From Parapristionchus giblindavisi (lineage: Eukaryota; Nematoda; Chromadorea; Rhabditida; Diplogasteridae): DNA of 64,000 bases. The notes under the pieces were generated by a model that had not been told where the DNA came from, ran no database searches, and worked only from the letters and a program-made list of their open reading frames with translations. The position numbers and the translations under genes are program-made. The stretch covers positions 62,001-126,000 of the forward strand of contig CALSFV010000029.1 in assembly GCA_943737045.1 (NCBI GenBank), written 5' to 3'. Within the stretch, counting starts at the first letter, position 1, and each line of letters starts with the position of its first letter. Below are positions 774 through 64,000 of the stretch, in pieces.

Positions 774-782
774 CATTAGTTA

Positions 783-930: not shown

Positions 931-960
931 CGGGGCGTGGGCGTTTGCGGAACAAGCGCC

Positions 961-4442: not shown

Positions 4443-4518
4443 GCCCGCCCACGTATGGGTGAAACGCCGATTCACGGTCGCCACACTTCATCTACATACC
4501 TCATCGATCACATTCCAG

Positions 4519-4662: not shown

Positions 4663-4737
4663 GTAATAAAGTTGGAAAATATATTCAAGTATAAAGTTAT
4701 TTGTTTTTATGTTTGTATTGTGGAACATGACTGTACG

Positions 4738-4893: not shown

Positions 4894-5176
4894 GTCGTCA
4901 GGCAAATGTTCGTATGTATACACGAATAGACAAGTTAACCTTATCTATTAAATTTATTGATTGATTGCTTTATACGCTCACTTAATTACTGTGAATTGAG
5001 CAGCGAACATGCTAGGATACGGTAGGAATATTTGGAAGTATGGTACCAGTACTTTTATTTCGGAGGGGGGATCATCTAGGAAATAGTTCCTTTAATTGTA
5101 TAACACCTGGTGAATCGTTGTTTCTTATTTTGATTGGTATCTTGATGAACAAGCGAATTATGAGTGGATTTACCCT

Positions 5177-5964
5177 TTGATTTGCTGTTGCTCTTTAGTA
5201 AGCTTGTGTAAGGATACGGTAGGAATAATTGAAAGTATGGTACCAGTACTTTTATTTCGGAGGGGGGATCATCTAGGAAATAGTTCCTTTAATTGTATAA
5301 CACCTGGTGAATCGTTGTTTCTTATTTTGATTGGTATCTTGATGAACAAGCGAATTATGAGTGGATTTACCCTTTGATTTGCTGTTGCTCTTTAGTAAGC
5401 TTGTGTAAGGATACGGTAGGAATAATTGAAAGTATGGTACCAGTACTTTTATTTCGGAGGGGGGATCATCTAGGAAATAGTTCCTTTAATTGTATAACAC
5501 CTGGTGAATCGTTGTTTCTTATTTTGATTGGTATCTTGATGAACAAGCGAATTATGAGTGGATTTACCCTTTGATTTGCTGTTGCTCTTTAGTAAGCTTG
5601 TGTAAGGATACGGTAGGAATAATTGAAAGTATGGTACCAGTACTTTTATTTCGGAGGGGGGATCATCTAGGAAATAGTTCCTTTAATTGTATAACACCTG
5701 GTGAATCGTTGTTTCTTATTTTGATTGGTATCTTGATGAACAAGCGAATTATGAGTGGATTTACCCTTTGATTTGCTGTTGCTCTTTAGTAAGCTTGTGT
5801 AAGGATACGGTAGGAATATTTGGAAGTATGGTACCAGTACTTTTATTTCGGAGGGGGGATCATCTAGGAAATAGTTCCTTTAATTGTATAACACCTGGTG
5901 AATCGTTGTTTCTTATTTTGATTGGTATCTTGATGAACAAGCGAATTATGAGTGGATTTACCCT
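5177..5964 (+). repeat. Canonical 197-bp subrepeat, four head-to-tail full copies (type example)
   Basis: Copies begin at 5177, 5374, 5571 and 5768, exactly 197 bp apart. Landmarks in order are TTGATTTGCTGTTGCTC, GGATACGGTAGGAAT, GGTACCAGTACT, CGGA followed by six G, the short hairpin AGGAA-atag-TTCCT, AACACCTGGTGAATCG and GAACAAGCGAATTATGAG. Two main sequence types alternate: one reads AATAATTGAAAG with GTATAAC, the other AATATTTGGAAG with GTGTAAC. An open frame of 66 codons fills each copy, starting at TTG and overlapping the next by four bases. It is judged incidental because it lacks an ATG start and fails in copies whose G-tract length differs. Confidence 0.95.
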
Positions 5965-6173
5965 TTGATTTGCTGTTGCTCTTTAGTAAGCTTGTGTAAG
6001 GATACGGTAGGAATAATTGAAAGTATGTTACCAGTACTTTTATTTCGGCGGGAACATCTAGGAAAAAAGTTCCTTTAATTGTTTAACACCTTATTCTTAA
6101 CACCTGGTGAATCGTGGTTTCTTATTTTGATTGGTATCTTGATGAACAAGCGAATTATGTGTGAATTTACTCT
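5965..6173 (+). repeat. Diverged terminal subrepeat (type example)
   Basis: The last subrepeat of every run is a distinct version about 209 bp long. The G tract is replaced by CGGCGGGAACATC, the hairpin reads AGGAAAAAAGTTCCT, a 14-bp partial duplication gives AACACCTTATTCTTAACACC, and the end reads ATGTGTGAATTTACTC. It always sits between the canonical run and the core, so it marks one fixed end of each higher-order unit. In units ending at cores 8715 and 17042 it is replaced by a canonical/diverged hybrid. Confidence 0.9.
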
Positions 6174-6421
6174 TTGATTTGTTTTTGCTGTTTAGTAATC
6201 TTGTGATATTGGGTAGTACGGTTCTATTGAAAGATGGTGTATAAGTAGTTGAAGGTACGGTAATTGCAGTTCGCCATACTGTATCAGTTTTGAATTGTGC
6301 GATAGGAATGGTTTTATCTCAACGAAACCAGTCTAAACTCGGTTATTTTCATATCTGATTAAAAGACAATGTTCTTTACCTATTGATCTCTTTGAATGTT
6401 AATATAGTTTTTAATCAATTA

Positions 6422-6445
6422 TACTAATCAATACCCCTTTTCCAG
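6422..6445 (+). promoter_or_regulatory. Branch-site and 3' splice-site motif ahead of the exon-like block (type example)
   Basis: TACTAAT at 6422-6428 is followed by ACCCCTTTTCCAG, with AG at 6444-6445. The likely branch adenosine is 18 bases from the AG, a normal spacing for spliceosomal introns. The motif is present in all 42 cores. In cores 31409, 35538, 38202 and 43740 it reads TACTTAT, which removes the expected branch adenosine, and cores 21607, 22742 and 25011 have CCTC for CCCC in the tract. Confidence 0.55.
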
Positions 6446-6550
6446 CTCATCGACATGTTCGCCATCGACGATATCCGCTGATCTACCGTACCCGATCGCT
6501 CATATCGATCGAACACTATCGATCAGAAGACGGCGATCAAGAGGAGAAAG
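6446..6550 (+). other. 105-bp exon-like block, first of 42 copies
   Basis: The block lies between TTTTCCAG and AAAG|GTAATACG, is about 50% GC in AT-rich surroundings, and is CGAT-rich. Its length is 35 codons exactly. Frame 1 is closed by TGA at codon 12, but the second and third frames are open throughout and stay open if copies are joined to each other (junction codons AGC and GCT). Further copies start at 7776, 8715, 9850, 11179, 12313, 13642, 14776, 16105, 17042, 18186, 19331, 20473, 21607, 22742, 23877, 25011, 26145, 27280, 28497, 31409, 32626, 35538, 36672, 38202, 39336, 40674, 41811, 43740, 44874, 46797, 48720, 49857, 50996, 52130, 53858, 54995, 56132, 57272, 59000, 61121 and 63049, each 105 bp. 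No protein family is recognised and expression is unproven. Confidence 0.5.
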
Positions 6551-8233
6551 GTAATACGATTTAATCAATAATGTATAAAGATGTGTTATCATTTTATTGT
6601 TGTTTGTGTACAAGAATTGAGTCACTGAATGATGTATAGGACATCATAGAATAGACAAGTTAACCTTATCTATTCAATTTATTGATTGATTGCTTTATAC
6701 GCTCACTTAATTGCTGTGAATTGAGCAGCGAACATGCTAGGATACGGTAGGAATATTTGGAAGTATGGTACCAGTACTTTTATTTCGGAGGGGGATCATC
6801 TAGGAAATAGTTCCTTTAATTGTATAACACCTGGTGAATCGTTGTTTCTTATTTTGATTGGTATCTTGATGAACAAGCGAATTATGAGTGGATTTACCCT
6901 TTGATTTGCTGTTGCTCTTTAGTAAGCTTGTGTAAGGATACGGTAGGAATAATTGAAAGAATGGTACCAGTACTTTTATTTCGGAGGGGGGATCATCTAG
7001 GAAATAGTTCCTTTAATTGTATAACACCTGGTGAATCGTTGTTTCTTATTTTGATTGGTATCTTGATGAACAAGCGAATTATGAGTGGATTTACCCTTTG
7101 ATTTGCTGTTGCTCTTTAGTAAGCTTGTGTAAGGATACGGTAGGAATATTTGGAAGTATGGTACCAGTACTTTTATTTCGGAGGGGGGATCATCTAGGAA
7201 ATAGTTCCTTTAATTGTATAACACCTGGTGAATCGTTGTTTCTTATTTTGATTGGTATCTTGATGAACAAGCGAATTATGAGTGGATTTACCCTTTGATT
7301 TGCTGTTGCTCTTTAGTAAGCTTGTGTAAGGATACGGTAGGAATAATTGAAAGTATGGTACCAGTACTTTTATTTCGGCGGGAACATCTAGGAAAAAAGT
7401 TCCTTTAATTGTTTAACACCTTATTCTTAACAACTGGTGAATCGTGGTTTCTTATTTTGATTGGTATCTTGATGAACAAGCGAATTATGTGTGAATTTAC
7501 TCTTTGATTTGTTTTTGCTGTTTAGTAATCTTGTGATATTGGGTGGTACGGTTCTATTGAAAGATGGTGTATAAGTAGTTGAAGGTACAGTAATTGCAGT
7601 TCGGCATACTGTATCAGTTTTGAATTGTGCGATATGAATGGTTTTATCTCAACGAAACCAGTCTAAACTCGGTTATTTTCATATCTGATTAAAAGACAAT
7701 GTTCTTTACCTATTGATCTCTTTGAATGTTAATATAGTTTTTAATCAATTATACTAATCAATACCCCTTTTCCAGCTCATCGACATGTTCGCCATCGACG
7801 ATATCCGCTGATCTACCGTACCCGATCGCTCATATCGATCGAACACTATCGATCAGAAGACGGCGATCAAGAGGAGAAAGGTAATACGATTTAATCAATA
7901 ATGTATAAAGATGTGTTATCATTTTATTGTTGTTTGTGTACAAGAATTGAGTCACTGAATGATGTATAGGACATCATAGAATAGACAAGTTAACCTTATC
8001 TATTCAATTTATTGATTGATTGCTTTATACGCTCACTTAATTGCTGTGAATTGAGCAGCGAACATGCTAGGATACGGTAGGAATATTTGGAAGTATGGTA
8101 CCAGTACTTTTATTTCGGAGGGGGGATCATCTAGGAAATAGTTCCTTTAATTGTATAACACCTGGTGAATCGTTGTTTCTTATTTTGATTGGTATCTTGA
8201 TGAACAAGCGAATTATGAGTGGATTTACCCTTT

Positions 8234-8470
8234 GATTTGCTGTTGCTCTTTAGTAAGCTTGTGTAAGGATACGGTAGGAATAATTGAAAGAATGGTACCA
8301 GTACTTTTATTTCGGAGGGGGGATCATCTAGGAAATAGTTCCTTTAATTGTTTAACACCTTATTCTTAACACCTGGTGAATCGTGGTTTCTTATTTTGAT
8401 TGGTATCTTGATGAACAAGCGAATTATGTGTGAATTTACTCTTTGATTTGTTTTTGCTGTTTAGTAATCT
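8234..8470 (+). repeat. Hybrid subrepeat: canonical left half, diverged right half
   Basis: The sequence is canonical through six G and AGGAAATAGTTCCTTTAATTG, then switches to the diverged version TTTAACACCTTATTCTTAAC. The unit is accordingly one subrepeat short (core spacing 939 bp). This is the expected product of unequal crossover or gene conversion within a subrepeat. Confidence 0.85.
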
Positions 8471-10140
8471 TGTGATATTGGGTGGTACGGTTCTATTGAA
8501 AGATGGTGTATAAGTAGTTGAAGGTACGGTAATTGCAGTTCGGCATACTGTATCAGTTTTGAATTGTGCGATAGGAATGGTTTTATCTCAACGAAACCAG
8601 TCTAAACTCGGTTATTTTCATATCTGATTAAAAGACAATGTTCTATACCTATTGATCTCTTTGAATGTTAATATAGTTTTTAATCAATTATACTAATCAA
8701 TACCCCTTTTCCAGCTCATCGACATGTTCGCCATCGACGATATCCGCTGATCTACCGTACCCGATCGTTCATATCGATCGAGCACTATCGATCAGAAGAC
8801 GGCGATCAAGAGGAGAAAGGTAATACGATTTAATCAATAATGTATAAAGATGTGTTATCATTTTATTGTTGTTTGTGTACAAGAATTGAGTCACTGAATG
8901 ATGTATAGGACATCATAGAATAGACAAGTTAACCTTATCTATTCAATTTATTGATTGATTGCTTTATACGCTCACTTAATTACTGTGAATTGAGCAGCGA
9001 ACATGCTAGGATACGGTAGGAATAATTGAAAGTATGGTACCAGTACTTTTATTTCGGGGTGGGGGGGATCATCTAGGAAATAGTTCTTCAATTGTTTAAC
9101 ACCTGGTGAATCGTTGTTTCTTATTTTGATTGGTACCTAGATGAACACGCGAATTATGAGTGGATTTACCCTTTTATTTGCTGTTGCTCTTTAGTAAGCT
9201 TGTGTAAGGATACGGTAGGAATAATTGAAAGTATGGTACCAGTACTTTTATTTCGGAGGGGGGATCATCTAGGAAATAGTTCTTTAATTGTATAACACCT
9301 GGTGAATCGTTGTTTCTTATTTTGATTGGTATCTTGATGAACAAGCGAATTATGAGTGGATTTACCCTTTGATTTGCTGTTGCTCTTTAGTAAGCTTGTG
9401 TAAGGATACGGTAGGAATAATTGAAAGTATGTTACCAGTACTTTTATTTCGGCGGGAACATCTAGGAAAAAAGTTCCTTTAATTGTTTAACACCTTATTC
9501 TTAACACCTGGTGAATCGTGGTTTCTTATTTTGATTGGTATCTTGATGAACAAGCGAATTATGTGTGAATTTACTCTTTGATTTGTTTTTGCTGTTTAGT
9601 AATCTTGTGATATTGGGTGGTACGGTTCTATTGAAAGATGGTGTATAAGTAGTTGAAGGTACGGTAATTGCAGTTCGCCATACTGTATCAGTTTTGAATT
9701 GTGCGATAGGAATGGTTTTATCTCAACGAAACCAGTCTAAACTCGGTTATTTTCATATCTGATTAAAAGACAATGTTCTTTACCTATTGATCTCTTTGAA
9801 TGTTAATATAGTTTTTAATCAATTATACTAATCAATACCCCTTTTCCAGCTCATCGACATGTTCGCCATCGACGATATCCGCTGATCTACCGTACCCGAT
9901 CGCTCATATCGATCGAACACTATCGATCAGAAGACGGCGATCAAGAGGAGAAAGGTAATACGATTTAATCAATAATGTATAAAGATGTGTTATCATTTTA
10001 TTGTTGTTTGTGTACAAGAATTGAGTCACTGAATGATGTATAGGACATCATAGAATAGACAAGTTAACCTTATCTATTCAATTTATTGATTGATTGCTTT
10101 ATACGCTCACTTAATTGCTGTGAATTGAGCAGCGAACATG

Positions 10141-13100
10141 CTAGGATACGGTAGGAATATTTGGAAGTATGGTACCAGTACTTTTATTTCGGAGGGGGGA
10201 TCATCTAGGAAATAGTTCCTTTAATTGTATAACACCTGGTGAATCGTTGTTTCTTATTTTGATTGGTATCTTGATGAACAAGCGAATTATGAGTGGATTT
10301 ACCCTTTGATTTGCTGTTGCTCTTTAGTAAGCTTGTGTAAGGATACGGTAGGAATAATTGAAAGAATGGTACCAGTACTTTTATTTCGGAGGGGGGATCA
10401 TCTAGGAAATAGTTCCTTTAATTGTATAACACCTGGTGAATCGTTGTTTCTTATTTTGATTGGTATCTTGATGAACAAGCGAATTATGAGTGGATTTACC
10501 CTTTGATTTGCTGTTGCTCTTTAGTAAGCTTGTGTAAGGATACGGTAGGAATATTTGGAAGTATGGTACCAGTACTTTTATTTCGGAGGGGGGATCATCT
10601 AGGAAATAGTTCCTTTAATTGTATAACACCTGGTGAATCGTTGTTTCTTATTTTGATTGGTATCTTGATGAACAAGCGAATTATGAGTGGATTTACCCTT
10701 TGATTTGCTGTTGCTCTTTAGTAAGCTTGTGTAAGGATACGGTAGGAATAATTGAAAGTATGGTACCAGTACTTTTATTTCGGCGGGAACATCTAGGAAA
10801 AAAGTTCCTTTAATTGTTTAACACCTTATTCTTAACACCTGGTGAATCGTGGTTTCTTATTTTGATTGGTATCTTGATGAACAAGCGAATTATGTGTGAA
10901 TTTACTCTGATTTGTTTTTGCTGTTTAGTAATCTTGTGATATTGGGTGGTACGGTTCTATTGAAAGATGGTGTATAAGTAGTTGAAGGTACGGTAATTGC
11001 AGTTCGGCATACTGTATCAGTTTTGAATTGTGCGATAGGAATGGTTTTATCTCAACGAAACCAGTCTAAACTCGGTTATTTTCATATCTGATTAAAAGAC
11101 AATGTTCTATACCTATTGATCTCTTTGAATGTTAATATAGTTTTTAATCAATTATACTAATCAATACCCCTTTTCCAGCTCATCGACATGTTCGCCATCG
11201 ACGATATCCGCTGATCTACCGTACCCGATCGCTCATATCGATCGAACACTATCGATCAGAAGACGGCGATCAAGATTAGAAAGGTAATACGATTTATTCA
11301 ATAATGTATAAAGATGTGTTATCATTTTATTGTTGTTTGTGTACAAGAATTGAGTCACTGAATGATGTATAGGACATCATAGAATAGACAAGTTAACCTT
11401 ATCTATTCAATTTATTGATTGATTGCTTTATACGCTCACTTAATTGCTGTGAATTGAGCAGCGAACATGCTAGGATACGGTAGGAATAATTGAAAGAATG
11501 GTACCAGTACTTTTATTTCGGAGGGGGGATCATCTAGGAAATAGTTCCTTTAATTGTATAACACCTGGTGAATCGTTGTTTCTTATTTTTATTGGTATCT
11601 TGATGAACAAGCGAATTATGAGTGGATTTACCATTTGATTTGCTGTTGCTCTTTAGTAAGCTTGTGTAAGGATACGGTAGGAATATTTGGAAGTATGGTA
11701 CCAGTACTTTTATTTCGGAGGGGGGATCATCTAGGAAATAGTTCCTTTAATTGTATAACACCTGGTGAATCGTTGTTTCTTATTTTGATTGGTATCTTGA
11801 TGAACAAGCGAATTATGAGTGGATTTACCCTTTGATTTGCTGTTGCTCTTTAGTAAGCTTGTGTAAGGATACGGTAGGAATAATTGAAAGTATGGTACCA
11901 GTACTTTTATTTCGGCGGGAACATCTAGGAAAAAAGTTCCTTTAATTGTTTAACACCTTATTCTTAACACCTGGTGAATCGTGGTTTCTTATTTTGATTG
12001 GTATCTTGATGAACAAGCGAATTATGTGTGAATTTACTCTTTGATTTGTTTTTGCTGTTTAGTAATCTTGTGATATTGGGTGGTACGGTTCTATTGAAAG
12101 ATGGTGTATAAGTAGTTGAAGGTACGGTAATTGCAGTTCGCCATACTGTATCAGTTTTGAATTGTGCGATAGGAATGGTTTTATCTCAACGAAACCAGTC
12201 TAAACTCGGTTATTTTCATATCTGATTAAAAGACAATGTTCTTTACCTATTGATCTCTTTGAATGTTAATATAGTTTTTAATCAATTATACTAATCAATA
12301 CCCCTTTTCCAGCTCATCGACATGTTCGCCATCGACGATATCCGCTGATCTACCGTACCCGATCGCTCATATCGATCGAACACTATCGATCAGAAGACGG
12401 CGATCAAGAGGAGAAAGGTAATACGATTTAATCAATAATGTATAAAGATGTGTTATCATTTTATTGTTGTTTGTGTACAAGAATTGAGTCACTGAATGAT
12501 GTATAGGACATCATAGAATAGACAAGTTAACCTTATCTATTCAATTTATTGATTGATTGCTTTATACGCTCACTTAATTGCTGTGAATTGAGCAGCGAAC
12601 ATGCTAGGATACGGTAGGAATATTTGGAAGTATGGTACCAGTACTTTTATTTCGGAGGGGGGATCATCTAGGAAATAGTTCCTTTAATTGTATAACACCT
12701 GGTGAATCGTTGTTTCTTATTTTGATTGGTATCTTGATGAACAAGCGAATTATGAGTGGATTTACCCTTTGATTTGCTGTTGCTCTTTAGTAAGCTTGTG
12801 TAAGGATACGGTAGGAATAATTGAAAGAATGGTACCAGTACTTTTATTTCGGAGGGGGGATCATCTAGGAAATAGTTCCTTTAATTGTATAACACCTGGT
12901 GAATCGTTGTTTCTTATTTTGATTGGTATCTTGATGAACAAGCGAATTATGAGTGGATTTACCCTTTGATTTGCTGTTGCTCTTTAGTAAGCTTGTGTAA
13001 GGATACGGTAGGAATATTTGGAAGTATGGTACCAGTACTTTTATTTCGGAGGGGGGATCATCTAGGAAATAGTTCCTTTAATTGTATAACACCTGGTGAA

Positions 13101-16100
13101 TCGTTGTTTCTTATTTTGATTGGTATCTTGATGAACAAGCGAATTATGAGTGGATTTACCCTTTGATTTGCTGTTGCTCTTTAGTAAGCTTGTGTAAGGA
13201 TACGGTAGGAATAATTGAAAGTATGGTACCAGTACTTTTATTTCGGCGGGAACATCTAGGAAAAAAGTTCCTTTAATTGTTTAACACCTTATTCTTAACA
13301 CCTGGTGAATCGTGGTTTCTTATTTTGATTGGTATCTTGATGAACAAGCGAATTATGTGTGAATTTACTCTGATTTGTTTTTGCTGTTTAGTAATCTTGT
13401 GATATTGGGTGGTACGGTTCTATTGAAAGATGGTGTATAAGTAGTTGAAGGTACGGTAATTGCAGTTCGGCATACTGTATCAGTTTTGAATTGTGCGATA
13501 GGAATGGTTTTATCTCAACGAAACCAGTCTAAACTCGGTTATTTTCATATCTGATTAAAAGACAATGTTCTATACCTATTGATCTCTTTGAATGTTAATA
13601 TAGTTTTTAATCAATTATACTAATCAATACCCCTTTTCCAGCTCATCGACATGTTCGCCATCGACGATATCCGCTGATCTACCGTACCCGATCGCTCATA
13701 TCGATCGAACACTATCGATCAGAAGACGGCGATCAAGATTAGAAAGGTAATACGATTTATTCAATAATGTATAAAGATGTGTTATCATTTTATTGTTGTT
13801 TGTGTACAAGAATTGAGTCACTGAATGATGTATAGGACATCATAGAATAGACAAGTTAACCTTATCTATTCAATTTATTGATTGATTGCTTTATACGCTC
13901 ACTTAATTGCTGTGAATTGAGCAGCGAACATGCTAGGATACGGTAGGAATAATTGAAAGAATGGTACCAGTACTTTTATTTCGGAGGGGGGATCATCTAG
14001 GAAATAGTTCCTTTAATTGTATAACACCTGGTGAATCGTTGTTTCTTATTTTTATTGGTATCTTGATGAACAAGCGAATTATGAGTGGATTTACCATTTG
14101 ATTTGCTGTTGCTCTTTAGTAAGCTTGTGTAAGGATACGGTAGGAATATTTGGAAGTATGGTACCAGTACTTTTATTTCGGAGGGGGGATCATCTAGGAA
14201 ATAGTTCCTTTAATTGTATAACACCTGGTGAATCGTTGTTTCTTATTTTGATTGGTATCTTGATGAACAAGCGAATTATGAGTGGATTTACCCTTTGATT
14301 TGCTGTTGCTCTTTAGTAAGCTTGTGTAAGGATACGGTAGGAATAATTGAAAGTATGGTACCAGTACTTTTATTTCGGCGGGAACATCTAGGAAAAAAGT
14401 TCCTTTAATTGTTTAACACCTTATTCTTAACACCTGGTGAATCGTGGTTTCTTATTTTGATTGGTATCTTGATGAACAAGCGAATTATGTGTGAATTTAC
14501 TCTTTGATTTGTTTTTGCTGTTTAGTAATCTTGTGATATTGGGTGGTACGGTTCTATTGAAAGATGGTGTATAAGTAGTTGAAGGTACGGTAATTGCAGT
14601 TCGCCATACTGTATCAGTTTTGAATTGTGCGATAGGAATGGTTTTATCTCAACGAAACCAGTCTAAACTCGGTTATTTTCATATCTGATTAAAAGACAAT
14701 GTTCTTTACCTATTGATCTCTTTGAATGTTAATATAGTTTTTAATCAATTATACTAATCAATACCCCTTTTCCAGCTCATCGACATGTTCGCCATCGACG
14801 ATATCCGCTGATCTACCGTACCCGATCGCTCATATCGATCGAACACTATCGATCAGAAGACGGCGATCAAGAGGAGAAAGGTAATACGATTTAATCAATA
14901 ATGTATAAAGATGTGTTATCATTTTATTGTTGTTTGTGTACAAGAATTGAGTCACTGAATGATGTATAGGACATCATAGAATAGACAAGTTAACCTTATC
15001 TATTCAATTTATTGATTGATTGCTTTATACGCTCACTTAATTGCTGTGAATTGAGCAGCGAACATGCTAGGATACGGTAGGAATATTTGGAAGTATGGTA
15101 CCAGTACTTTTATTTCGGAGGGGGGATCATCTAGGAAATAGTTCCTTTAATTGTATAACACCTGGTGAATCGTTGTTTCTTATTTTGATTGGTATCTTGA
15201 TGAACAAGCGAATTATGAGTGGATTTACCCTTTGATTTGCTGTTGCTCTTTAGTAAGCTTGTGTAAGGATACGGTAGGAATAATTGAAAGAATGGTACCA
15301 GTACTTTTATTTCGGAGGGGGGATCATCTAGGAAATAGTTCCTTTAATTGTATAACACCTGGTGAATCGTTGTTTCTTATTTTGATTGGTATCTTGATGA
15401 ACAAGCGAATTATGAGTGGATTTACCCTTTGATTTGCTGTTGCTCTTTAGTAAGCTTGTGTAAGGATACGGTAGGAATATTTGGAAGTATGGTACCAGTA
15501 CTTTTATTTCGGAGGGGGGATCATCTAGGAAATAGTTCCTTTAATTGTATAACACCTGGTGAATCGTTGTTTCTTATTTTGATTGGTATCTTGATGAACA
15601 AGCGAATCATGAGTGGATTTACCCTTTGATTTGCTGTTGCTCTTTAGTAAGCTTGTGTAAGGATACGGTAGGAATAATTGAAAGTATGGTACCAGTACTT
15701 TTATTTCGGCGGGAACATCTAGGAAAAAAGTTCCTTTAATTGTTTAACACCTTATTCTTAACACCTGGTGAATCGTGGTTTCTTATTTTGATTGGTATCT
15801 TGATGAACAAGCGAATTATGTGTGAATTTACTCTGATTTGTTTTTGCTGTTTAGTAATCTTGTGATATTGGGTGGTACGGTTCTATTGAAAGATGGTGTA
15901 TAAGTAGTTGAAGGTACGGTAATTGCAGTTCGGCATACTGTATCAGTTTTGAATTGTGCGATAGGAATGGTTTTATCTCAACGAAACCAGTCTAAACTCG
16001 GTTATTTTCATATCTGATTAAAAGACAATGTTCTATACCTATTGATCTCTTTGAATGTTAATATAGTTTTTAATCAATTATACTAATCAATACCCCTTTT

Positions 16101-17332
16101 CCAGCTCATCGACATGTTCGCCATCGACGATATCCGCTGATCTACCGTACCCGATCGCTCATATCGATCGAACACTATCGATCAGAAGACGGCGATCAAG
16201 ATTAGAAAGGTAATACGATTTATTCAATAATGTATAAAGATGTGTTATCATTTTATTGTTGTTTGTGTACAAGAATTGAGTCACTGAATGATGTATAGGA
16301 CATCATAGAATAGACAAGTTAACCTTATCTATTCAATTTATTGATTGATTGCTTTATACGCTCACTTAATTGCTGTGAATTGAGCAGCGAACATGCTAGG
16401 ATACGGTAGGAATAATTGAAAGAATGGTACCAGTACTTTTATTTCGGAGGGGGGATCATCTAGGAAATAGTTCCTTTAATTGTATAACACCTGGTGAATC
16501 GTTGTTTCTTATTTTTATTGGTATCTTGATGAACAAGCGAATTATGAGTGGATTTACCATTTGATTTGCTGTTGCTCTTTAGTAAGCTTGTGTAAGGATA
16601 CGGTAGGAATATTTGGAAGTATGGTACCAGTACTTTTATTTCGGAGGGGGGATCATCTAGGAAATAGTTCCTTTAATTGTATAACACCTTATTCTTAACA
16701 CCTGGTGAATCGTGGTTTCTTATTTTGATTGGTATCTTGATGAACAAGCGAATTATGTGTGAATTTACTCTGATTTGTTTTTGCTGTTTAGTAATCTTGT
16801 GATATTGGGTGGTACGGTTCTATTGAAAGATGGTGTATAAGTAGTTGAAGGTACGGTAATTGCAGTTCGGCATACTGTATCAGTTTTGAATTGTGCGATA
16901 GGAATGGTTTTATCTCAACGAAACCAGTCTAAACTCGGTTATTTTCATATCTGATTAAAAGACAATGTTCTATACCTATTGATCTCTTTGAATGTTAATA
17001 TAGTTTTTAATCAATTATACTAATCAATACCCCTTTTCCAGCTCATCGACATGTTCGCCATCGACGATATCCGCTGATCTACCGTACCCGATCGTTCATA
17101 TCGATCGAGCACTATCGATCAGAAGACGGCGATCAAGAGGAGAAAGGTAATACGATTTAATCAATAATGTATAAAGATGTGTTATCATTTTATTGTTGTT
17201 TGTGTACAAGAATTGAGTCACTGAATGATGTATAGGACATCATAGAATAGACAAGTTAACCTTATCTATTCAATTTATTGATTGATTGCTTTATACGCTC
17301 ACTTAATTACTGTGAATTGAGCAGCGAACATG
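10141..17332 (+). repeat. 2463-bp dimeric higher-order repeat, two full copies and a shortened third
   Basis: Units of 1329 and 1134 bp alternate at 10141-12603 and 12604-15066. The third dimer, 15067-17332, is about 197 bp shorter because of a hybrid subrepeat at about 16560-16770. Private variants recur at the 2463-bp interval: TTTACTCTGATTTG lacking two T (near 10906, 13369, 15832), GATTAGAAAG at the exon-like block end (cores 11179, 13642, 16105), and ATTTTTATTGG in one subrepeat. Confidence 0.9.
16560..16770 (+). repeat. Second, independent hybrid subrepeat
   Basis: Here the canonical sequence runs on through GTATAACACC before changing to TTATTCTTAAC of the diverged form, so the breakpoint lies further right than in the hybrid near 8350. 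The unit again loses one subrepeat (core spacing 937 bp). Confidence 0.85.
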
Positions 17333-48100: not shown

Positions 48101-49010
48101 TATGGTACCAGTACTTTTATTTCGGAGGGGGGATCATCTAGGAAATAGTTCCTTTAATTGTGTAACACCTGGTGAATCGTTGTTTCTTATTTTGATTGGT
48201 ATCTTGATGAACAAGCGAATTATGAGTGGATTTACCCTTTGATTTGCTGTTGCTCTTTAGTAAGCTTGTGTAAGGATACGGTAGGAATAATTGAAAGTAT
48301 GGTACCAGTACTTTTATTTCGGCGGGAACATCTAGGAAAAAAGTTCCTTTAATTGTTTAACACCTTATTCTTAACACCTGGTGAATCGTGGTTTCTTATT
48401 TTGATTGGTATCTTGATGAACAAGCGAATTATGTGTGAATTTACTCTTTGATTTGTTTTTGCTGTTTAGTAATCTTGTGATATTGGGTGGTACGGTTCTA
48501 TTGAAAGATGGTGTATAAGTAGTTGAAGGTACGGTAATTGCAGTTCGGCATTCTGTATCAGTCTTGAATTATGCGATAGAAATGGTTTTATCTCAACGAA
48601 ACCAGTCTAAACTCGGTTATTTTCATATCTGATTAAAAGACAATGTTCTATACCTATTGATCTCTTTGAATGTTAATATAGTTTTTAATCAATTATACTA
48701 ATCAATACCCCTTTTCCAGCTCATCGACATGTTCGCCATCGACGATATCCGCTGATCTACCGTACCCGATCGTTCATATCGATCGAGCACTATCGATCAG
48801 AAGACGGCGATCAAGAGGAGAAAGGTAATACGATTTAATCAATAATGTATAAAGATGTGTTATCATTTTATTGTTGTTTGTGTACAAGAATTGAGTCACT
48901 GAATGATGTATAGGACATCATAGAATAGACAAGTTAACCTTATCTATTCAATTTATTGATTGATTGCTTTATACGCTCACTTAATTACTGTGAATTGAGC
49001 AGCGAACATG
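45165..49010 (+). repeat. 1923-bp unit present twice in tandem
   Basis: Units 45165-47087 and 47088-49010 each hold six canonical subrepeats and share private variants: GGTATTTTGATGAAC in the first subrepeat, CCAGCACTTTT in the fifth, and a core with GGCATTCTGTATCAGTC and AATTATGCGATAG. Confidence 0.9.
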
Positions 49011-52000: not shown

Positions 52001-55000
52001 TCTCAACGAAACCAGTCTAAACTCGGTTATTTTCATATCTGATTAAAAGACAATGTTCTATACCTATTGATCTCTTTGAATGTTAATATAGTTTTTAATC
52101 AATTATACTAATCAATACCCCTTTTCCAGCTCATCGACATGTTCGCCATCGACGATATCCGCTGATCTACCGTACCCGATCGTTCATATCGATCGAGCAC
52201 TATCGATCAGAAGACGGCGATCAAGAGGAGAAAGGTAATACGATTTAATCAATAATGTATAAAGATGTGTTATCATTTTATTGTTGTTTGTGTACAAGAA
52301 TTGAGTCACTGAATGATGTATAGGACATCACAGAATAGACAAGTTAACCTTATCTATTCAATTTATTGATTGATTGCTTTATACGCTCACTTAATTACTG
52401 TGAATTGAGCAGCGAACATGCTAGGATACGGTAGGAATAATTGAAAGTATGGTACCAGTACTTTTATTTCGGAGGGGGGATCATATAGGAAATAGTTCCT
52501 TTAATTGTGTAACACCTGGTGAATCGTTGTTTCTTATTTTGATTGGTATCTTGATGAACAAGCGAATTATGAGTGGATTTACCCTTTGATTTGCTGTTGC
52601 TCTTTAGTAAGCTTGTGTAAGGATACGGTAGGAATAATTGAAAGTATGGTACCAGTACTTTTATTTCGGAGGGGGGATCGTCTAGGAAATAGTTCCTTTA
52701 ATTGTATAACACCTGGTGAATCGTTGTTTCTTATTTTGATTGGTATCTTGATGAACAAGCGAATTATGAGTGGATTTACCCTTTGATTTGCTGTTGCTCT
52801 TTAGTAAGCTTGTGTAAGGATACGGTAGGAATATTTGGAAGTATGGTACCTGTACTTTTATTTCGGAGGGGGGATCATCTACGAAATAGTTCCTTTAATT
52901 GTGTAACACCTGGTGAATCGTTGTTTCTTATTTTGATTGGTATCTTGATGAACAAGCGAATTATGAGTGGATTTACCCTTTGATTTGCTGTTGCTCTTTA
53001 GTAAGCTTGTGTAAGGATACGGTAGGAATAATTGAAAGTATGGTACCAGTACTTTTATTTCGGAGGGGGGGATCATCTAGGAAATAGTTCCTTTAATTGT
53101 ATAACACCTGGTGAATCGTTGTTTCTTATTTTGATTGGTATCTTGATGAACAAGCGAATTATGAGTGGATTTACCCTTTGATTTGCTGTTGCTCTTTAGT
53201 AAGCTTGTGTAAGGATACGGTAGGAATAATTGAAAGTATGGTACCAGTACTTTTATTTCGGGGTGGGGGGGATCATCTAGGAAATAGTTCTTTAATTGTA
53301 TAACACCTGGTGAATCGTTGTTTCTTATTTTGATTGGTATCTTGATGAACAAGCGAATTATGAGTGGATTTACCCTTTGATTTGCTGTTGCTCTTTAGTA
53401 AGCTTGTGTAAGGATACGGTAGGAATAATTGAAAGTATGGTACCAGTACTTTTATTTCGGCGGGAACATCTAGGAAAAAAGTTCCTTTAATTGTTTAACA
53501 CCTTATTCTTAACACCTGGTGAATCGTGGTTTCTTATTTTGATTGGTATCTTGATGAACAAGCGAATTATGTGTGAATTTACTCTTTGATTTGTTTTTGC
53601 TGTTTAGTAATCTTGTGATATTGGGTGGTACGGTTCTATTGAAAGATGGTGTATAAGTAGTTGAAGGTACGGTAATTGCAGTTCGGCATACTGTATCAGT
53701 TTTGAATTGTGCGATAGGAATGGTTTTATCTCAACGAAACCAGTCTAAACTCGGTTATTTTCATATCTGATTAAAAGACAATGTTCTATACCTATTGATC
53801 TCTTTGAATGTTAATATAGTTTTTAATCAATTATACTAATCAATACCCCTTTTCCAGCTCATCGACATGTTCGCCATCGACGATATCCGCTGATCTACCG
53901 TACCCGATCGTTCATATCGATCGAGCACTATCGATCAGAAGACGGCGATCAAGAGGAGAAAGGTAATACGATTTAATCAATAATGTATAAAGATGTGTTA
54001 TCATTTTATTGTTGTTTGTGTACAAGAATTGAGTCACTGAATGATGTATAGGACATCATAGAATAGACAAGTTAACCTTATCTATTCAATTTATTGATTG
54101 ATTGCTTTATACGCTCACTTAATTACTGTGAATTGAGCAGCGAACATGCTAGGATGCGGTAGGAATAATTGAAAGTATGGTACCAGTACTTTTATTTCGG
54201 AGGGGGGGATCATCTAGGAAATAGTTCCTTTAATTGTATAACACCTGGTGAATCGTTGTTTCTTATTTTGATTGGTATCTTGATGAACAAGCGAATTATG
54301 AGTGGATTTACCCTTTGATTTGCTGTTGCTCTTTAGTAAGCTTGTGTAAGGATACGGTAGGAATAATTGAAAGTATGGTACCAGTACTTTTATTTCGGGG
54401 TGGGGGGGATCATCTAGGAAATAGTTCTTTAATTGTGTAACACCTGGTGAATCGTTGTTTCTTATTTTGATTGGTATCTTGATGAACAAGCGAATTATGA
54501 GTGGATTTACCCTTTGATTTGCTGTTGCTCTTTAGTAAGCTTGTGTAAGGATACGGTAGGAATAATTGAAAGTATGGTACCAGTACTTTTATTTCGGCGG
54601 GAACATCTAGGAAAAAAGTTCCTTTAATTGTTTAACACCTTATTCTTAACACCTGGTGAATCGTGGTTTCTTATTTTGATTGGTATCTTGATGAACAAGC
54701 GAATTATGTGTGAATTTACTCTTTGATTTGTTTTTGCTGTTTAGTAATCTTGTGATATTGGGTGGTACGGTTCTATTGAAAGATGGTGTATAAGTAGTTG
54801 AAGGTACGGTAATTGCAGTTCGGCATACTGTATCAGTTTTGAATTGTGCGATAGGAATGGTTTTATCTCAACGAAACCAGTCTAAACTCGGTTATTTTCA
54901 TATCTGATTAAAAGACAATGTTCTATACCTATTGATCTCTTTGAATGTTAATATAGTTTTTAATCAATTATACTAATCAATACCCCTTTTCCAGCTCATC

Positions 55001-57562
55001 GACATGTTCGCCATCGACGATATCCGCTGATCTACCGTACCCGATCGTTCATATCGATCGAGCACTATCGATCAGAAGACGGCGATCAAGAGGAGAAAGG
55101 TAATACGATTTAATCAATAATGTATAAAGATGTGTTATCATTTTATTGTTGTTTGTGTACAAGAATTGAGTCACTGAATGATGTATAGGACATCATAGAA
55201 TAGACAAGTTAACCTTATCTATTCAATTTATTGATTGATTGCTTTATACGCTCACTTAATTACTGTGAATTGAGCAGCGAACATGCTAGGATGCGGTAGG
55301 AATAATTGAAAGTATGGTACCAGTACTTTTATTTCGGAGGGGGGGATCATCTAGGAAATAGTTCCTTTAATTGTATAACACCTGGTGAATCGTTGTTTCT
55401 TATTTTGATTGGTATCTTGATGAACAAGCGAATTATGAGTGGATTTACCCTTTGATTTGCTGTTGCTCTTTAGTAAGCTTGTGTAAGGATACGGTAGGAA
55501 TAATTGAAAGTATGGTACCAGTACTTTTATTTCGGGGTGGGGGGGATCATCTAGGAAATAGTTCTTTAATTGTGTAACACCTGGTGAATCGTTGTTTCTT
55601 ATTTTGATTGGTATCTTGATGAACAAGCGAATTATGAGTGGATTTACCCTTTGATTTGCTGTTGCTCTTTAGTAAGCTTGTGTAAGGATACGGTAGGAAT
55701 AATTGAAAGTATGGTACCAGTACTTTTATTTCGGCGGGAACATCTAGGAAAAAAGTTCCTTTAATTGTTTAACACCTTATTCTTAACACCTGGTGAATCG
55801 TGGTTTCTTATTTTGATTGGTATCTTGATGAACAAGCGAATTATGTGTGAATTTACTCTTTGATTTGTTTTTGCTGTTTAGTAATCTTGTGATATTGGGT
55901 GGTACGGTTCTATTGAAAGATGGTGTATAAGTAGTTGAAGGTACGGTAATTGCAGTTCGGCATACTGTATCAGTTTTGAATTGTGCGATAGGAATGGTTT
56001 TATCTCAACGAAACCAGTCTAAACTCGGTTATTTTCATATCTGATTAAAAGACAATGTTCTATACCTATTGATCTCTTTGAATGTTAATATAGTTTTTAA
56101 TCAATTATACTAATCAATACCCCTTTTCCAGCTCATCGACATGTTCGCCATCGACGATATCCGCTGATCTACCGTACCCGATCGTTCATATCGATCGAGC
56201 ACTATCGATCAGAAGACGGCGATCAAGAGGAGAAAGGTAATACGATTTAATCAATAATGTATAAAGATGTGTTATCATTTTATTGTTGTTTGTGTACAAG
56301 AATTGAGTCACTGAATGATGTATAGGACATCATAGAATAGACAAGTTAACCTTATCTATTCAATTTATTGATTGATTGCTTTATACGCTCACTTAATTAC
56401 TGTGAATTGAGCAGCGAACATGCTAGGATGCGGTAGGAATAATTGAAAGGATGGTACCAGTACTTTTATTTCGGAGGGGGGGATCATCTAGGAAATAGTT
56501 CCTTTAATTGTATAACACCTGGTGAATCTTTGTTTCTTATTTTGATTGGTATCTTGATGAACAAGCGAATTATGAGTGGATTTACCCTTTGATTTGCTGT
56601 TGCTCTTTAGTAAGCTTGTGTAAGGATACGGTAGGAATAATTGAAAGTATGGTACCAGTACTTTTATTTCGGGGTGGGGGGGGGGATCATCTAGGAAATA
56701 GTTCTTTAATTGTGTAACACCTGGTGAATCGTTGTTTCTTATTTTGATTGGTATCTTGATGAACAAGCGAATTATGAGTGGATTTACCCTTTGATTTGCT
56801 GTTGCTCTTTAGTAAGCTTGTGTAAGGATACGGTAGGAATAATTGAAAGTATGGTACCAGTACTTTTATTTCGGCGGGAACATCTAGGAAAAAAGTTCCT
56901 TTAATTGTTTAACACCTTATTCTTAACACCTGGTGAATCGTGGTTTCTTATTTTGATTGGTATCTTGATGAACAAGCGAATTATGTGTGAATTTACTCTT
57001 TGATTTGTTTTTGCTGTTTAGTAATCTTGTGATATTGGGTGGTACGGTTCTATTGAAAGATGGTGTATAAGTAGTTGAAGGTACGGTAATTGCAGTTCGG
57101 CATACTGTATCAGTTTTGAATTGTGCGATAGGAATGGTTTTATCTCAACGAAACCAGTCTAAACTCGGTTATTTTCATATCTGATTAAAAGACAATGTTC
57201 TATACCTATTGATCTCTTTGAATGTTAATATAGTTTTTAATCAATTATACTAATCAATACCCCTTTTCCAGCTCATCGACATGTTCGCCATCGACGATAT
57301 CCGCTGATCTACCGTACCCGATCGTTCATATCGATCGAGCACTATCGATCAGAAGACGGCGATCAAGAGGAGAAAGGTAATACGATTTAATCAATAATGT
57401 ATAAAGATGTGTTATCATTTTATTGTTGTTTGTGTACAAGAATTGAGTCACTGAATGATGTATTGGACATCATAGAATAGACAAGTTAACCTTATCTATT
57501 CAATTTATTGATTGATTGCTTTATACGCTCACTTAATTACTGTGAATTGAGCAGCGAACATG
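49011..57562 (+). repeat. Mainly 1134-1140-bp units with one 1728-bp unit
   Basis: Cores at 49857, 50996, 52130, 53858, 54995, 56132 and 57272. Most units begin CTAGGATGCGG and contain a second subrepeat with CGGGGT plus a G run and a one-base deletion (AGTTCTTTAATTG). The unit ending at core 53858 carries five canonical subrepeats. These are near-identical neighbours and probably a recent local expansion. Confidence 0.88.
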
Positions 57563-60500
57563 CTAGGATACGGTAGGAATAATTGAAAGTATGGTACCAG
57601 TACTTTTATTTCGGGGTGGGGGGGATCATCTAGGAAATAGTTCTTTAATTGTTTAACACCTGGTGAATCGTTGTTTCTTATTTTGATTGGTACCTAGATG
57701 AACACGCGAATTATGAGTGGATTTACCCTTTGATTTGCTGTTGCTCTTTAGTAAGCTTGTGTAAGGATACGGTAGGAATAATTGAAAGTATGGTACCAGT
57801 ACTTTTATTTCGGAGGGGGGATCATCTAGGAAATAGTTCCTTTAATTGTATAACACCTGGTGAATCGTTGTTTCTTATTTTGATTGGTATCTTGATGAAC
57901 AAGCGAATTATGAGTGGATTTACCCTTTGATTTGCTGTTGCTCTTTAGTAAGCTTGTGTAAGGATACGGTAGGAATATTTGGAAGTATGGTACCTGTACT
58001 TTTATTTCGGAGGGGGGATCATCTAGGAAATAGTTCCTTTAATTGTGTAACACCTGGTGAATCGTTGTTTCTTATTTTGATTGGTATCTTGATGAACAAG
58101 CGAATTATGAGTGGATTTACCCTTTGATTTGCTGTTGCTCTTTAGTAAGCTTGTGTAAGGATACGGTAGGAATAATTGAAAGTATGGTACCAGCACTTTT
58201 ATTTCGGAGGGGGGGATCATCTAGGAAATAGTTCCTTTAATTGTATAACACCTGGTGAATCGTTGTTTCTTATTTTGATTGGTATCTTGATGAACAAGCG
58301 AATTATGAGTGGATTTACCCTTTGATTTGCTGTTGCTCTTTAGTAAGCTTGTGTAAGGATACGGTAGGAATATTTGGAAGTATGGTACCAGTACTTTTAT
58401 TTCGGAGGGGGGATCATCTAGGAAATAGTTCCTTTAATTGTGTAACACCTGGTGAATCGTTGTTTCTTATTTTGATTGGTATCTTGATGAACAAGCGAAT
58501 TATGAGTGGATTTACCCTTTGATTTGCTGTTGCTCTTTAGTAAGCTTGTGTAAGGATACGGTAGGAATAATTGAAAGTATGGTACCAGTACTTTTATTTC
58601 GGCGGGAACATCTAGGAAAAAAGTTCCTTTAATTGTTTAACACCTTATTCTTAACACCTGGTGAATCGTGGTTTCTTATTTTGATTGGTATCTTGATGAA
58701 CAAGCGAATTATGTGTGAATTTACTCTTTGATTTGTTTTTGCTGTTTAGTAATCTTGTGATATTGGGTGGTACGGTTCTATTGAAAGATGGTGTATAAGT
58801 AGTTGAAGGTACGGTAATTGCAGTTCGGCATTCTGTATCAGTCTTGAATTATGCGATAGAAATGGTTTTATCTCAACGAAACCAGTCTAAACTCGGTTAT
58901 TTTCATATCTGATTAAAAGACAATGTTCTATACCTATTGATCTCTTTGAATGTTAATATAGTTTTTAATCAATTATACTAATCAATACCCCTTTTCCAGC
59001 TCATCGACATGTTCGCCATCGACGATATCCGCTGATCTACCGTACCCGATCGTTCATATCGATCGAGCACTATCGATCAGAAGACGGCGATCAAGAGGAG
59101 AAAGGTAATACGATTTAATCAATAATGTATAAAGATGTGTTATCATTTTATTGTTGTTTGTGTACAAGAATTGAGTCACTGAATGATGTATTGGACATCA
59201 TAGAATAGACAAGTTAACCTTATCTATTCAATTTATTGATTGATTGCTTTATACGCTCACTTAATTACTGTGAATTGAGCAGCGAACATGCTAGGATACG
59301 GTAGGAATAATTGAAAGTATGGTACCAGTACTTTTATTTCGGGGTGGGGGGGATCATCTAGGAAATAGTTCTTTAATTGTTTAACACCTGGTGAATCGTT
59401 GTTTCTTATTTTGATTGGTACCTAGATGAACACGCGAATTATGAGTGGATTTACCCTTTGATTTGCTGTTGCTCTTTAGTAAGCTTGTGTAAGGATACGG
59501 TAGGAATATTTGGAAGTATGGTACCTGTACTTTTATTTCGGAGGGGGGATTATCTAGGAAATAGTTCCTTTAATTGTGTAACACCTGGTGAATCGTTGTT
59601 TCTTATTTTGATTGGTATCTTGATGAACAAGCGAATTATGAGTGGATTTACCCTTTGATTTGCTGTTGCTCTTTAGTAAGCTTGTGTAAGGATACGGTAG
59701 GAATAATTGAAAGTATGGTACCAGTACTTTTATTTCGGAGGGGGGGATCATCTAGGAAATAGTTCTTTAATTGTTTAACACCTGGTGAATCGTTGTTTCT
59801 TATTTTGATTGGTACCTAGATGAACACGCGAATTATGAGTGGATTTACCCTTTGATTTGCTGTTGCTCTTTAGTAAGCTTGTGTAAGGATACGGTAGGAA
59901 TAATTGAAAGTATGGTACCAGTACTTTTATTTCGGAGGGGGGATCATCTAGGAAATAGTTCCTTTAATTGTATAACACCTGGTGAATCGTTGTTTCTTAT
60001 TTTGATTGGTATCTTGATGAACAAGCGAATTATGAGTGGATTTACCCTTTGATTTGCTGTTGCTCTTTAGTAAGCTTGTGTAAGGATACGGTAGGAATAT
60101 TTGGAAGTATGGTACCTGTACTTTTATTTCGGAGGGGGGATCATCTAGGAAATAGTTCCTTTAATTGTGTAACACCTGGTGAATCGTTGTTTCTTATTTT
60201 GATTGGTATCTTGATGAACAAGCGAATTATGAGTGGATTTACCCTTTGATTTGCTGTTGCTCTTTAGTAAGCTTGTGTAAGGATACGGTAGGAATAATTG
60301 AAAGTATGGTACCAGTACTTTTATTTCGGAGGGGGGGATCATCTAGGAAATAGTTCCTTTAATTGTATAACACCTGGTGAATCGTTGTTTCTTATTTTGA
60401 TTGGTTTCTTGATGAACAAGCGAATTATGAGTGGATTTACCCTTTGATTTGCTGTTGCTCTTTAGTAAGCTTGTGTAAGGATACGGTAGGAATATTTGGA

Positions 60501-63500
60501 AGTATGGTACCAGTACTTTTATTTCGGAGGGGGGATCATCTAGGAAATAGTTCCTTTAATTGTGTAACACCTGGTGAATCGTTGTTTCTTATTTTGATTG
60601 GTATCTTGATGAACAAGCGAATTATGAGTGGATTTACCCTTTGATTTGCTGTTGCTCTTTAGTAAGCTTGTGTAAGGATACGGTAGGAATAATTGAAAGT
60701 ATGGTACCAGTACTTTTATTTCGGCGGGAACATCTAGGAAAAAAGTTCCTTTAATGGCTAACACCTTATTCTTAACACCTGGTGAATCGTGGTTTCTTAT
60801 TTTGATTGGTATCTTGATGAACAAGCGAATTATGTGTGAATTTACTCTTTGATTTGTTTTTGCTGTTTAGTAATCTTGTGATATTGGGTGGTACGGTTCT
60901 ATTGAAAGATGGTGTATATGTAGTTGAAGGTACGGTAATTGCAGTTCGGCATTCTGTATCAGTCTTGAATTATGCGATAGAAATGGTTTTATCTCAACGA
61001 AACCAGTCTAAACTCGGTTATTTTCATATCTGATTAAAAGACAATGTTCTATACCTATTGATCTCTTTGAATGTTAATATAGTTTTTAATCAATTATACT
61101 AATCAATACCCCTTTTCCAGCTCATCGACATGTTCGCCATCGACGATATCCGCTGATCTACCGTACCCGATCGTTCATATCGATCGAGCACTATCGATCA
61201 GAAGACGGCGATCAAGAGGAGAAAGGTAATACGATTTAATCAATAATGTATAAAGACGTGTTATCATTTTATTGTTGTTTGTGTACAAGAATTGAGTCAC
61301 TGAATGATGTATTGGACATCATAGAATAGACAAGTTAACCTTATCTATTCAATTTATTGATTGATTGCTTTATACGCTCACTTAATTACTGTGAATTGAG
61401 CAGCGAACATGCTAGGATACGGTAGGAATAATTGAAAGTATGGTACCAGTACTTTTATTTCGGGGTGGGGGGGATCATCTAGGAAATAGTTCTTTAATTG
61501 TTTAACACCTGGTGAATCGTTGTTTCTTATTTTGATTGGTACCTAGATGAACACGCGAATTATGAGTGGATTTACCCTTTGATTTGCTGTTGCTCTTTAG
61601 TAAGCTTGTGTAAGGATACGGTAGGAATAATTGAAAGTATGGTACCAGTACTTTTATTTCGGAGGGGGGGGATCATCTAGGAAATAGTTCCTTTAATTGT
61701 ATAACACCTGGTGAATCGTTGTTTCTTATTTTGATTGGTATCTTGATGAACAAGCGAATTATGAGTGGATTTACCCTTTGATTTGCTGTTGCTCTTTAGT
61801 AAGCTTGTGTAAGGATACGGTAGGAATATTTGGAAGTATGGTACCTGTACTTTTATTTCGGAGGGGGGATCATCTAGGAAATAGTTCCTTTAATTGTGTA
61901 ACACCTGGTGAATCGTTGTTTCTTATTTTGATTGGTATCTTGATGAACAAGCGAATTATGAGTGGATTTACCCTTTGATTTGCTGTTGCTCTTTAGTAAG
62001 CTTGTGTAAGGATACGGTAGGAATAATTGAAAGTATGGTACCAGTACTTTTATTTCGGAGGGGGGGGATCATCTAGGAAATAGTTCCTTTAATTGTATAA
62101 CACCTGGTGAATCGTTGTTTCTTATTTTGATTGGTATCTTGATGAACAAGCGAATTATGAGTGGATTTACCCTTTGATTTGCTGTTGCTCTTTAGTAAGC
62201 TTGTGTAAGGATACGGTAGGAATAATTGAAAGTATGGTACCAGTACTTTTATTTCGGAGGGGGGATCATCTAGGAAATAGTTCCTTTAATTGTATAACAC
62301 CTGGTGAATCGTTGTTTCTTATTTTGATTGGTATCTTGATGAACAAGCGAATTATGAGTGGATTTACCCTTTGATTTGCTGTTGCTCTTTAGTAAGCTTG
62401 TGTAAGGATACGGTAGGAATATTTGGAAGTATGGTACCAGTACTTTTATTTCGGAGGGGGGATCATCTAGGAAATAGTTCCTTTAATTGTGTAACACCTG
62501 GTGAATCGTTGTTTCTTATTTTGATTGGTATCTTGATGAACAAGCGAATTATGAGTGGATTTACCCTTTGATTTGCTGTTGCTCTTTAGTAAGCTTGTGT
62601 AAGGATACGGTAGGAATAATTGAAAGTATGGTACCAGTACTTTTATTTCGGCGGGAACATCTAGGAAAAAAGTTCCTTTAATTGTTTAACACCTTATTCT
62701 TAACACCTGGTGAATCGTGGTTTCTTATTTTGATTGGTATCTTGATGAACAAGCGAATTATGTGTGAATTTACTCTTTGATTTGTTTTTGCTGTTTAGTA
62801 ATCTTGTGATATTGGGTGGTACGGTTCTATTGAAAGATGGTGTATAAGTAGTTGAAGGTACGGTAATTGCAGTTCGGCATACTGTATCAGTTTTGAATTG
62901 TGCGATAGGAATGGTTTTATCTCAACGAAACCAGTCTAAACTCGGTTATTTTCATATCTGATTAAAAGACAATGTTCTATACCTATTGATCTCTTTGAAT
63001 GTTAATATAGTTTTTAATCAATTATACTAATCAATACCCCTTTTCCAGCTCATCGACATGTTCGCCATCGACGATATCCGCTGATCTACCGTACCCGATC
63101 GTTCATATCGATCGAGCACTATCGATCAGAAGACGGCGATCAAGAGGAGAAAGGTAATACGATTTAATCAATAATGTATAAAGACGTGTTATCATTTTAT
63201 TGTTGTTTGTGTACAAGAATTGAGTCACTGAATGATGTATTGGACATCATAGAATAGACAAGTTAACCTTATCTATTCAATTTATTGATTGATTGCTTTA
63301 TACGCTCACTTAATTACTGTGAATTGAGCAGCGAACATGCTAGGATACGGTAGGAATAATTGAAAGTATGGTACCAGTACTTTTATTTCGGGGTGGGGGG
63401 GATCATCTAGGAAATAGTTCTTTAATTGTTTAACACCTGGTGAATCGTTGTTTCTTATTTTGATTGGTACCTAGATGAACACGCGAATTATGAGTGGATT

Positions 63501-64000
63501 TACCCTTTGATTTGCTGTTGCTCTTTAGTAAGCTTGTGTAAGGATACGGTAGGAATATTTGGAAGTATGGTACCTGTACTTTTATTTCGGAGGGGGGATT
63601 ATCTAGGAAATAGTTCCTTTAATTGTGTAACACCTGGTGAATCGTTGTTTCTTATTTTGATTGGTATCTTGATGAACAAGCGAATTATGAGTGGATTTAC
63701 CCTTTGATTTGCTGTTGCTCTTTAGTAAGCTTGTGTAAGGATACGGTAGGAATAATTGAAAGTATGGTACCAGTACTTTTATTTCGGAGGGGGGGGATCA
63801 TCTAGGAAATAGTTCCTTTAATTGTATAACACCTGGTGAATCGTTGTTTCTTATTTTGATTGGTATCTTGATGAACAAGCGAATTATGAGTGGATTTACC
63901 CTTTGATTTGCTGTTGCTCTTTAGTAAGCTTGTGTAAGGATACGGTAGGAATAATTGAAAGTATGGTACCAGTACTTTTATTTCGGAGGGGGGATCATCT
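57563..64000 (+). repeat. Long units (1728, 2121, 1928 bp) with a 4049-bp repeat beginning at 59291
   Basis: Cores lie at 59000, 61121 and 63049. The variant GGGGATTATCTAGG occurs near 59545 and again near 63594, 4049 bp apart, the sum of the 2121- and 1928-bp units, so unit 63340 onward appears to restart a two-unit repeat. The window ends inside the fourth subrepeat of this last unit; the right edge of the array is not reached. Confidence 0.85.

Follow-up and report, generated by a model that had tools for sequence, protein, structure and literature searches.

A nematode satellite array of exon-like blocks, probably an amplified intron-exon-intron piece of a decayed gene

A 64,000-nucleotide stretch of contig CALSFV010000029.1 from the nematode Parapristionchus giblindavisi, referred to here as the window (C29:62001-126000; assembly of 251 Mb in 703 contigs), contains a satellite array in which a 105-bp exon-like block is repeated, each copy preceded by a sequence resembling an intron end and followed by one resembling an intron start. 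We consider it probable, at roughly 60%, that this array is a gene-derived satellite, namely an intron-exon-intron piece amplified from a decayed chimeric gene. A gene-like origin is favored because the array intron joins the last exon of Sec10 and because relatives of the array keep the introns around exchanged fillers of the exon slot. According to this model, a segment consisting of the exon-like block with the intron end before it and the intron start after it would have belonged to a chimeric, already decayed gene copy and would have been amplified head to tail by unequal exchange in the place where the array now lies, with an additional expansion of a 197-bp stretch inside the intron. 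The splice signals would be inherited rather than selected and would be kept alike by homogenization, and any transcript would be non-coding, with either many exons or skipped ones, and would end in a Sec10-like tail. An earlier interpretation made from the letters of this DNA (the sequence-only reading) had proposed a captured and amplified gene segment; the gene-like origin stood, given the Sec10 joint and the same introns with other fillers at two further loci, C251 and C289, but a captured coding exon was not supported.

At the right end of the array, the last unit stops within the donor-side intron and passes into GATTGATCTTTTGCAG and then CTTGCCGGTCCC (L015:4551-4571). The former is the 3' end of a Sec10 intron, and the latter is the last exon of Sec10 in the right orientation. 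The Sec10 (exocyst) gene itself was read on C265, where 608 codons with 18 GT-AG introns and no stop were found, the 5' end lying outside the sequence read. This protein was read from the same DNA, and its relatives provide the independent check: the Sec10 protein of this genome showed 74% identity to that of Pristionchus fissidentatus and 71% to that of P. mayeri, and a 286-residue piece of it matched Pfam PF07393 (1.7e-43) and PDB chain 5h11_A (2.3e-39), whose entry is labeled as an uncharacterized protein and which we take to be fish Exoc5. The Sec10-tail exon of C29, together with the sequence beyond it, matched C265 at 81% and C251 at 82%. This exon stops early, with LAGPALNTTTFLQSLP followed by a stop, after a deletion relative to C265 (LADPALITTFLQLRTDYRNLKWRP followed by a stop) and to C251. 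Farther to the right, C29 matches C265 sequence about 3 kb downstream of Sec10, which indicates that a rearranged copy of the Sec10 neighborhood sits to the right of the array. C251 carries a second array, which also adjoins a Sec10 tail.

The units of C251 and C289 share their intron matrix with C29, the introns being mostly 80-94% alike and 72% at the lowest. The 197-bp repeat occurs in tandem on C251, and each C289 piece read contains 0 to 2 long 197-like stretches (81-89%). From the pieces of these two loci that were read we listed 20 exon slots, 15 of them distinct, with four further slots left out; those with both borders measured 93 to about 184 bp. The fillers of the slots differed. 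Type A had its 3' half in common with the C29 block, type C was nearer to the C29 block in length, and type B had another sequence and an acceptor of its own (CTTTGCAG or CTTTTCAG), joined with the donor of the slot. Type B was present at only 6 places in this genome, all on C251 and C289; the idea that it was a piece of the dynamin GED was dropped, as no Pfam or PDB match was obtained. C251 and C289 are older relatives of the C29 array. As side observations, the C289 locus contains segmental copies about 6.7 kb apart (L061 and L062), and the sequence upstream of the C251 array at L050:2760-2920 reads like a conserved gene fragment, perhaps of CSE1/exportin-2.

These slots also bear on a different explanation, in which the array is a working non-coding gene with tens of repeated exons, laid out like SNHG14, transcribed from the left, with each unit spliced and with functional exons or intron pieces. 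AG at the acceptor and GT at the donor were found in 19 of the 20 listed slots despite their differing fillers, the acceptor side being rearranged in the remaining one, and even the B fillers with their different acceptor are bounded by AG and GT. However, the flanks used to locate the slots include these very dinucleotides, and the count of 19 is therefore conditional and not independent. Moreover, acceptor, block and donor have been deleted together in one C251 unit (L050:437-682, reverse complement), and the acceptor-side flanks stop short of the AG in C251a, L057 and L063. We regard a working gene of this kind as unlikely. A further proposal, in which the array is an exon-slot satellite, seems to us equally doubtful: the introns would form a conserved, amplified matrix and the exon an exchangeable cassette, and recombination inside exons would keep producing novel transcripts of many exons whose splice borders stay intact, and so supply new RNA genes attached to housekeeping tails such as that of Sec10.

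The array has the features of satellite DNA: its units are near-identical and head to tail, and related units lie at more than one locus (C251 and C289). The array occupies window positions 4924-64000 on the forward strand and continues to C29:160551, spanning 93.6 kb in all (C29:66924-160551). Within the window, 42 blocks of 105 bp, all on the forward strand, start between 6446 and 63049 and represent four sequence variants with 33, 5, 3 and 1 copies; the last block lies at 63049-63153, as placed by summed spacings. Across the contig there are 62 blocks (C29:68446 to 160464) with a variable spacing of 740-4243 bp, 48 of which are identical, while two further variants have 5 and 3 copies and 6 blocks belong to rarer variants. 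The 42 copies in a single orientation described by the sequence-only reading were thus confirmed, but the whole array is larger than the part then seen. In the first unit, all on the forward strand, the first run of the nested 197-bp tandem repeat (5014-6205) is followed by the acceptor-side intron with TACTAATCAATACCCCTTTTCCAG (6206-6445), the first block (6446-6550) and the donor-side intron, GTAATACG (6551-6738). The 197-bp repeat, with 289 matches in the C29 stretch, occupies much of the intron part of the unit. One unit, at L015:2542-2958, carries an inverted-repeat insertion of about 400 bp within its acceptor-side intron.

CAG precedes and GTAATA follows the block in 62 of 62 units, and thus also in 42 of 42 in the window; AG and GT accordingly bound every C29 block, and the flanks are near-identical. 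The exact TACTAAT was found in 58 of 62 units across the array and in 38 of 42 in the window, where the remaining four read TACTTAT, and the pyrimidine tract carried one change in 3 of the 42. The GC content of the first block was 0.50, compared with 0.25 and 0.27 in the adjoining 100 bp on each side. Apart from these few variants, the motifs around the block, its higher GC content (as seen at the first block) and the nested intronic repeat had been described correctly from the letters. Pairwise differences among the 62 blocks had a median of 0 and a mean of 0.009, as did those of the next 60 bp of intron. The present array is therefore either young or well homogenized.

Comparison with the other loci revealed a profile of divergence along the unit (eight comparisons of other loci with one C29 copy). 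The fraction of differing sites was 0.18-0.30 in the last 60 intron bases before the block, 0.37-0.50 in the 5' part of the block and 0.19-0.32 in its 3' part, and it fell to 0.02-0.10 in the first 60 bases after the donor in six of the eight comparisons and to 0.06-0.12 at donor positions +61 to +110 in five of the eight. Conservation is thus lowest in the 5' part of the block, a result that also counts against a functional non-coding exon; the 3' part resembles the acceptor-side intron, and divergence drops sharply at the GT. The block was not better conserved than its flanks in these C251 and C289 comparisons with C29. Likewise, AG and GT were kept in nearly all listed slots, but so was much of the flanking intron, and an excess of conservation of the splice motifs over the surrounding satellite was not found, which speaks in part against the sequence-only reading.

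The same profile bears on another alternative, an ordinary satellite stretch in which splice-like words arose by chance. Satellites are numerous in genomes, and the motif set TACTAAY-CAG-block-AGGTRA, a pattern chosen post hoc, arose in 29 of 10,000 first-order Markov versions of one unit. The donor is also mediocre and lacks the G at position +5, which is missing from all 20 listed slots of the other loci as well. However, composition shifts at the AG and at the GT, most comparisons with C29 show divergence going up at the AG and down at the GT, and the array meets a real Sec10 exon in the right orientation. Chance is thus an improbable source of the signals, slightly more so than the working non-coding gene.

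Several observations nevertheless weigh against an amplified gene piece that arose where it now lies. In the two remaining comparisons, in which the intron is rearranged, the first 60 donor-side bases differed at 0.26 and 0.28 of sites, and positions +61 to +110 differed at 0.32-0.60 in three comparisons. When C251 slots were compared with C289 slots, the contrast between block and intron was weaker (0.08-0.12 versus 0.03-0.05), and in the pair L052:1525/L057:1525 the donor side was more different than the block. Searches of this genome gave no single-copy coding parent of the 105-bp block among the best 40 of 150 and the best 40 of 81 candidates, which were mostly other C29 copies; the parent gene predicted by the sequence-only reading was therefore not recovered there. 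As for the place of the first amplification, no Sec10-tail match on C289 appeared among the best 40 of 106 candidates; the array may thus have reached Sec10 tails from elsewhere instead of originating next to them.

To score the splice signals, we used a model of 21 real donors and 20 real acceptors from the same genome, comprising the 18 Sec10 introns plus three donors and two acceptors of a downstream tetratricopeptide repeat (TPR) gene, which we take to be UNC-45-like. The array acceptor scored 5.7 and ranked second of the 70 AGs on the forward strand of the unit, a point in favor of the working non-coding gene; the array donor scored 4.7 and ranked 10th of 94 GTs. Both scores fell within the leave-one-out range of real sites. 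The donor rank depends on the model, being 25 of 94 with Sec10 alone and 10 of 94 after addition of the three TPR introns, none of which has the +5 G, a base present in 18 of the 21 real donors. The earlier description of complete splice signals was thus slightly too strong. Nematode branch sites show little consensus, and TACTAAT is hence a weak argument. The predicted block-to-block junction joins GAGAAAG (ending AAAG) to CTCATCGAC, and the predicted junction with the Sec10 tail joins it to CTTGCCGGTCCC. On the basis of these sites, the C29 array could be a satellite able to splice, if transcribed.

A block of 105 bp corresponds to 35 codons, and we also considered a protein-coding gene with a 35-residue repeat, one per exon. 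Two of the three phases are open through the joined C29 blocks, but about 8% of shuffled blocks also have two or three open phases. End-phases 0, 1 and 2 are open in 6, 3 and 6 of the 15 distinct slots, respectively, and slot lengths of 93, 107 and 108 bp coexist. With no phase kept open and length changes that are not multiples of three, the block does not behave as a conserved coding exon, a status that lacks support across the family and is improbable in C29. Third positions account for 7 of 13, 7 of 14 and 7 of 14 differences in end-phase 1 in three of six pairs, all involving slot L057:1525, so a coding past of this phase stays conceivable; no comparable excess appears in the other three pairs. 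With four joined repeats in one phase as the query, a protein search gave no protein with three words in common, and the upstream exon (described below) and the Sec10 tail are both frame-broken in C29. A coding repeat therefore seems very remote, far behind the other explanations.

Returning to non-coding function, we folded the aligned donor-side introns, using 12 of 13 rows in the RNAalifold windows. An inverted repeat, GAATAGACAAGTTAACCTTATCTATTC, lies in this intron at window positions 6649-6675 and is present, with some changes, in 13 aligned units from three loci; its better fold is on the minus strand. On the minus strand the z-scores were -6.0, -4.9, -3.0 and -1.4, whereas the plus strand gave -1.4 to -2.4; the minus-strand covariation term was -0.5 to -0.7 compared with shuffle means of -0.2 to -0.3 (means only, no spread). 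These values would suit a working non-coding gene, but the strand with the stronger fold is not that of the putative transcript. The acceptor-side windows gave z-scores of -1.3 or weaker and showed nothing.

No Rfam small nucleolar RNA (snoRNA) match was found in the array parts of window 1-9000 (first three blocks), L042, L052, L057 and L015, which is a further point against that gene. Rfam returned 18 matches, 17 to microRNA families in four stretches and one to sR2 on the left of the array (16.5 bits, cut-off 42); every one was below its gathering score, and a known non-coding RNA identity was rejected. Three of the four microRNA-matching stretches are visible inverted repeats (window 423-535, L057 416-725 and L015 2665-2809), and the fourth is L057 2611-2668. 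ARAGORN, in its bacterial setting, found no tRNA in the window, L015, L050, L042 or L044. Elsewhere in the genome, the SL1 sequence occurred 686 times at up to two mismatches, compared with 0 for a reversed control, which together with the Sec10 identities points to a nematode, probably a diplogastrid close to Pristionchus. At C145:26447-90056 the listed SL1 copies share one strand and mostly lie 1,160-1,170 bp apart, and this run is perhaps a spliced-leader RNA gene array.

On the left, the first matching base of the array is the first base of a larger inverted repeat, GAATAGACAAG...CTTATCTATTC, and this palindrome at window position 4924 may have served as a break point. The left flank (4656-4923, forward strand) contains a donor-like GCAG followed by GTAATAAAG and an intron start, and among the matches listed it shares 83-89% identity with array units on C245 and 85-86% with those on C98; single or few places on C347, C33 and C92 also match (best 34 of 1264 candidates). 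The C245 and C98 arrays (L045 and L046) have units of about 640-655 bp, also with an exon-like block, between TTTTCAG and AG-GTAATA. The donor-side introns of C29 and C245 gave an alignment score of 25 compared with 19.0 ± 2.6 for shuffles (maximum 30), the alignment starting at the GT in both introns, and C98 gave 23, with an alignment not starting at the GT; a common origin of C29 with these arrays is suggestive at most. Farther upstream, a decayed exon of a gene-like family (3259-3391, forward strand) ends with GAGAAG followed by GTATGTAA; the match covers residues 1-27 of 46, the remainder being in another frame, and this genome contains the exon-like peptide at 9 places, of which 4 have stops. 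Taken together, the left-flank matches, this frame-broken exon and the Sec10 copy indicate that the array is flanked on either side by fragments of gene-like loci that have been rearranged or have decayed. At window positions 240-770, a long inverted repeat, each arm of which contains 26-bp GCTAATCGGTAATGAATGA-like tandem copies and which gives a weak Rfam microRNA match, is perhaps an element resembling a miniature inverted-repeat transposable element.

Titles and abstract openings from a literature search contained no description of such an array. If transcribed, the array would be a direct test of how the spliceosome handles dozens of identical exons and of whether satellites seed new genes; if silent, it would be a clear case of a gene-like piece turned satellite, in a genome that also contains its older relatives on C251 and C289 and, on C265, the Sec10 gene from which its tail derives. 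In the kringle IV repeat of LPA, a coding exon array, exon and intron were amplified as a unit. C29 is similar in that exon and intron were amplified together, but C29 and the other loci have retained no reading phase in common. In SNHG14, the host gene of SNORD115 and SNORD116, 29 and 48 tandem introns, each giving a snoRNA, are described (PMC11608373). The C29 array likewise has tens of tandem exon-intron-like units in one orientation, and its blocks are apparently non-coding. In contrast to SNHG14, it contains nested 197-bp repeats and is known here from sequence alone, and a snoRNA in every repeated intron was not found in the array stretches scanned with Rfam, although an undescribed snoRNA family is still conceivable. 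With satellite DNA that has higher-order repeats, C29 shares the long head-to-tail array, the near-identical units, the nested shorter repeat and the variable unit length. It differs from such DNA in that its unit resembles an intron-exon-intron piece and joins a real exon, and in that the related loci hold other sequences in the exon slot.

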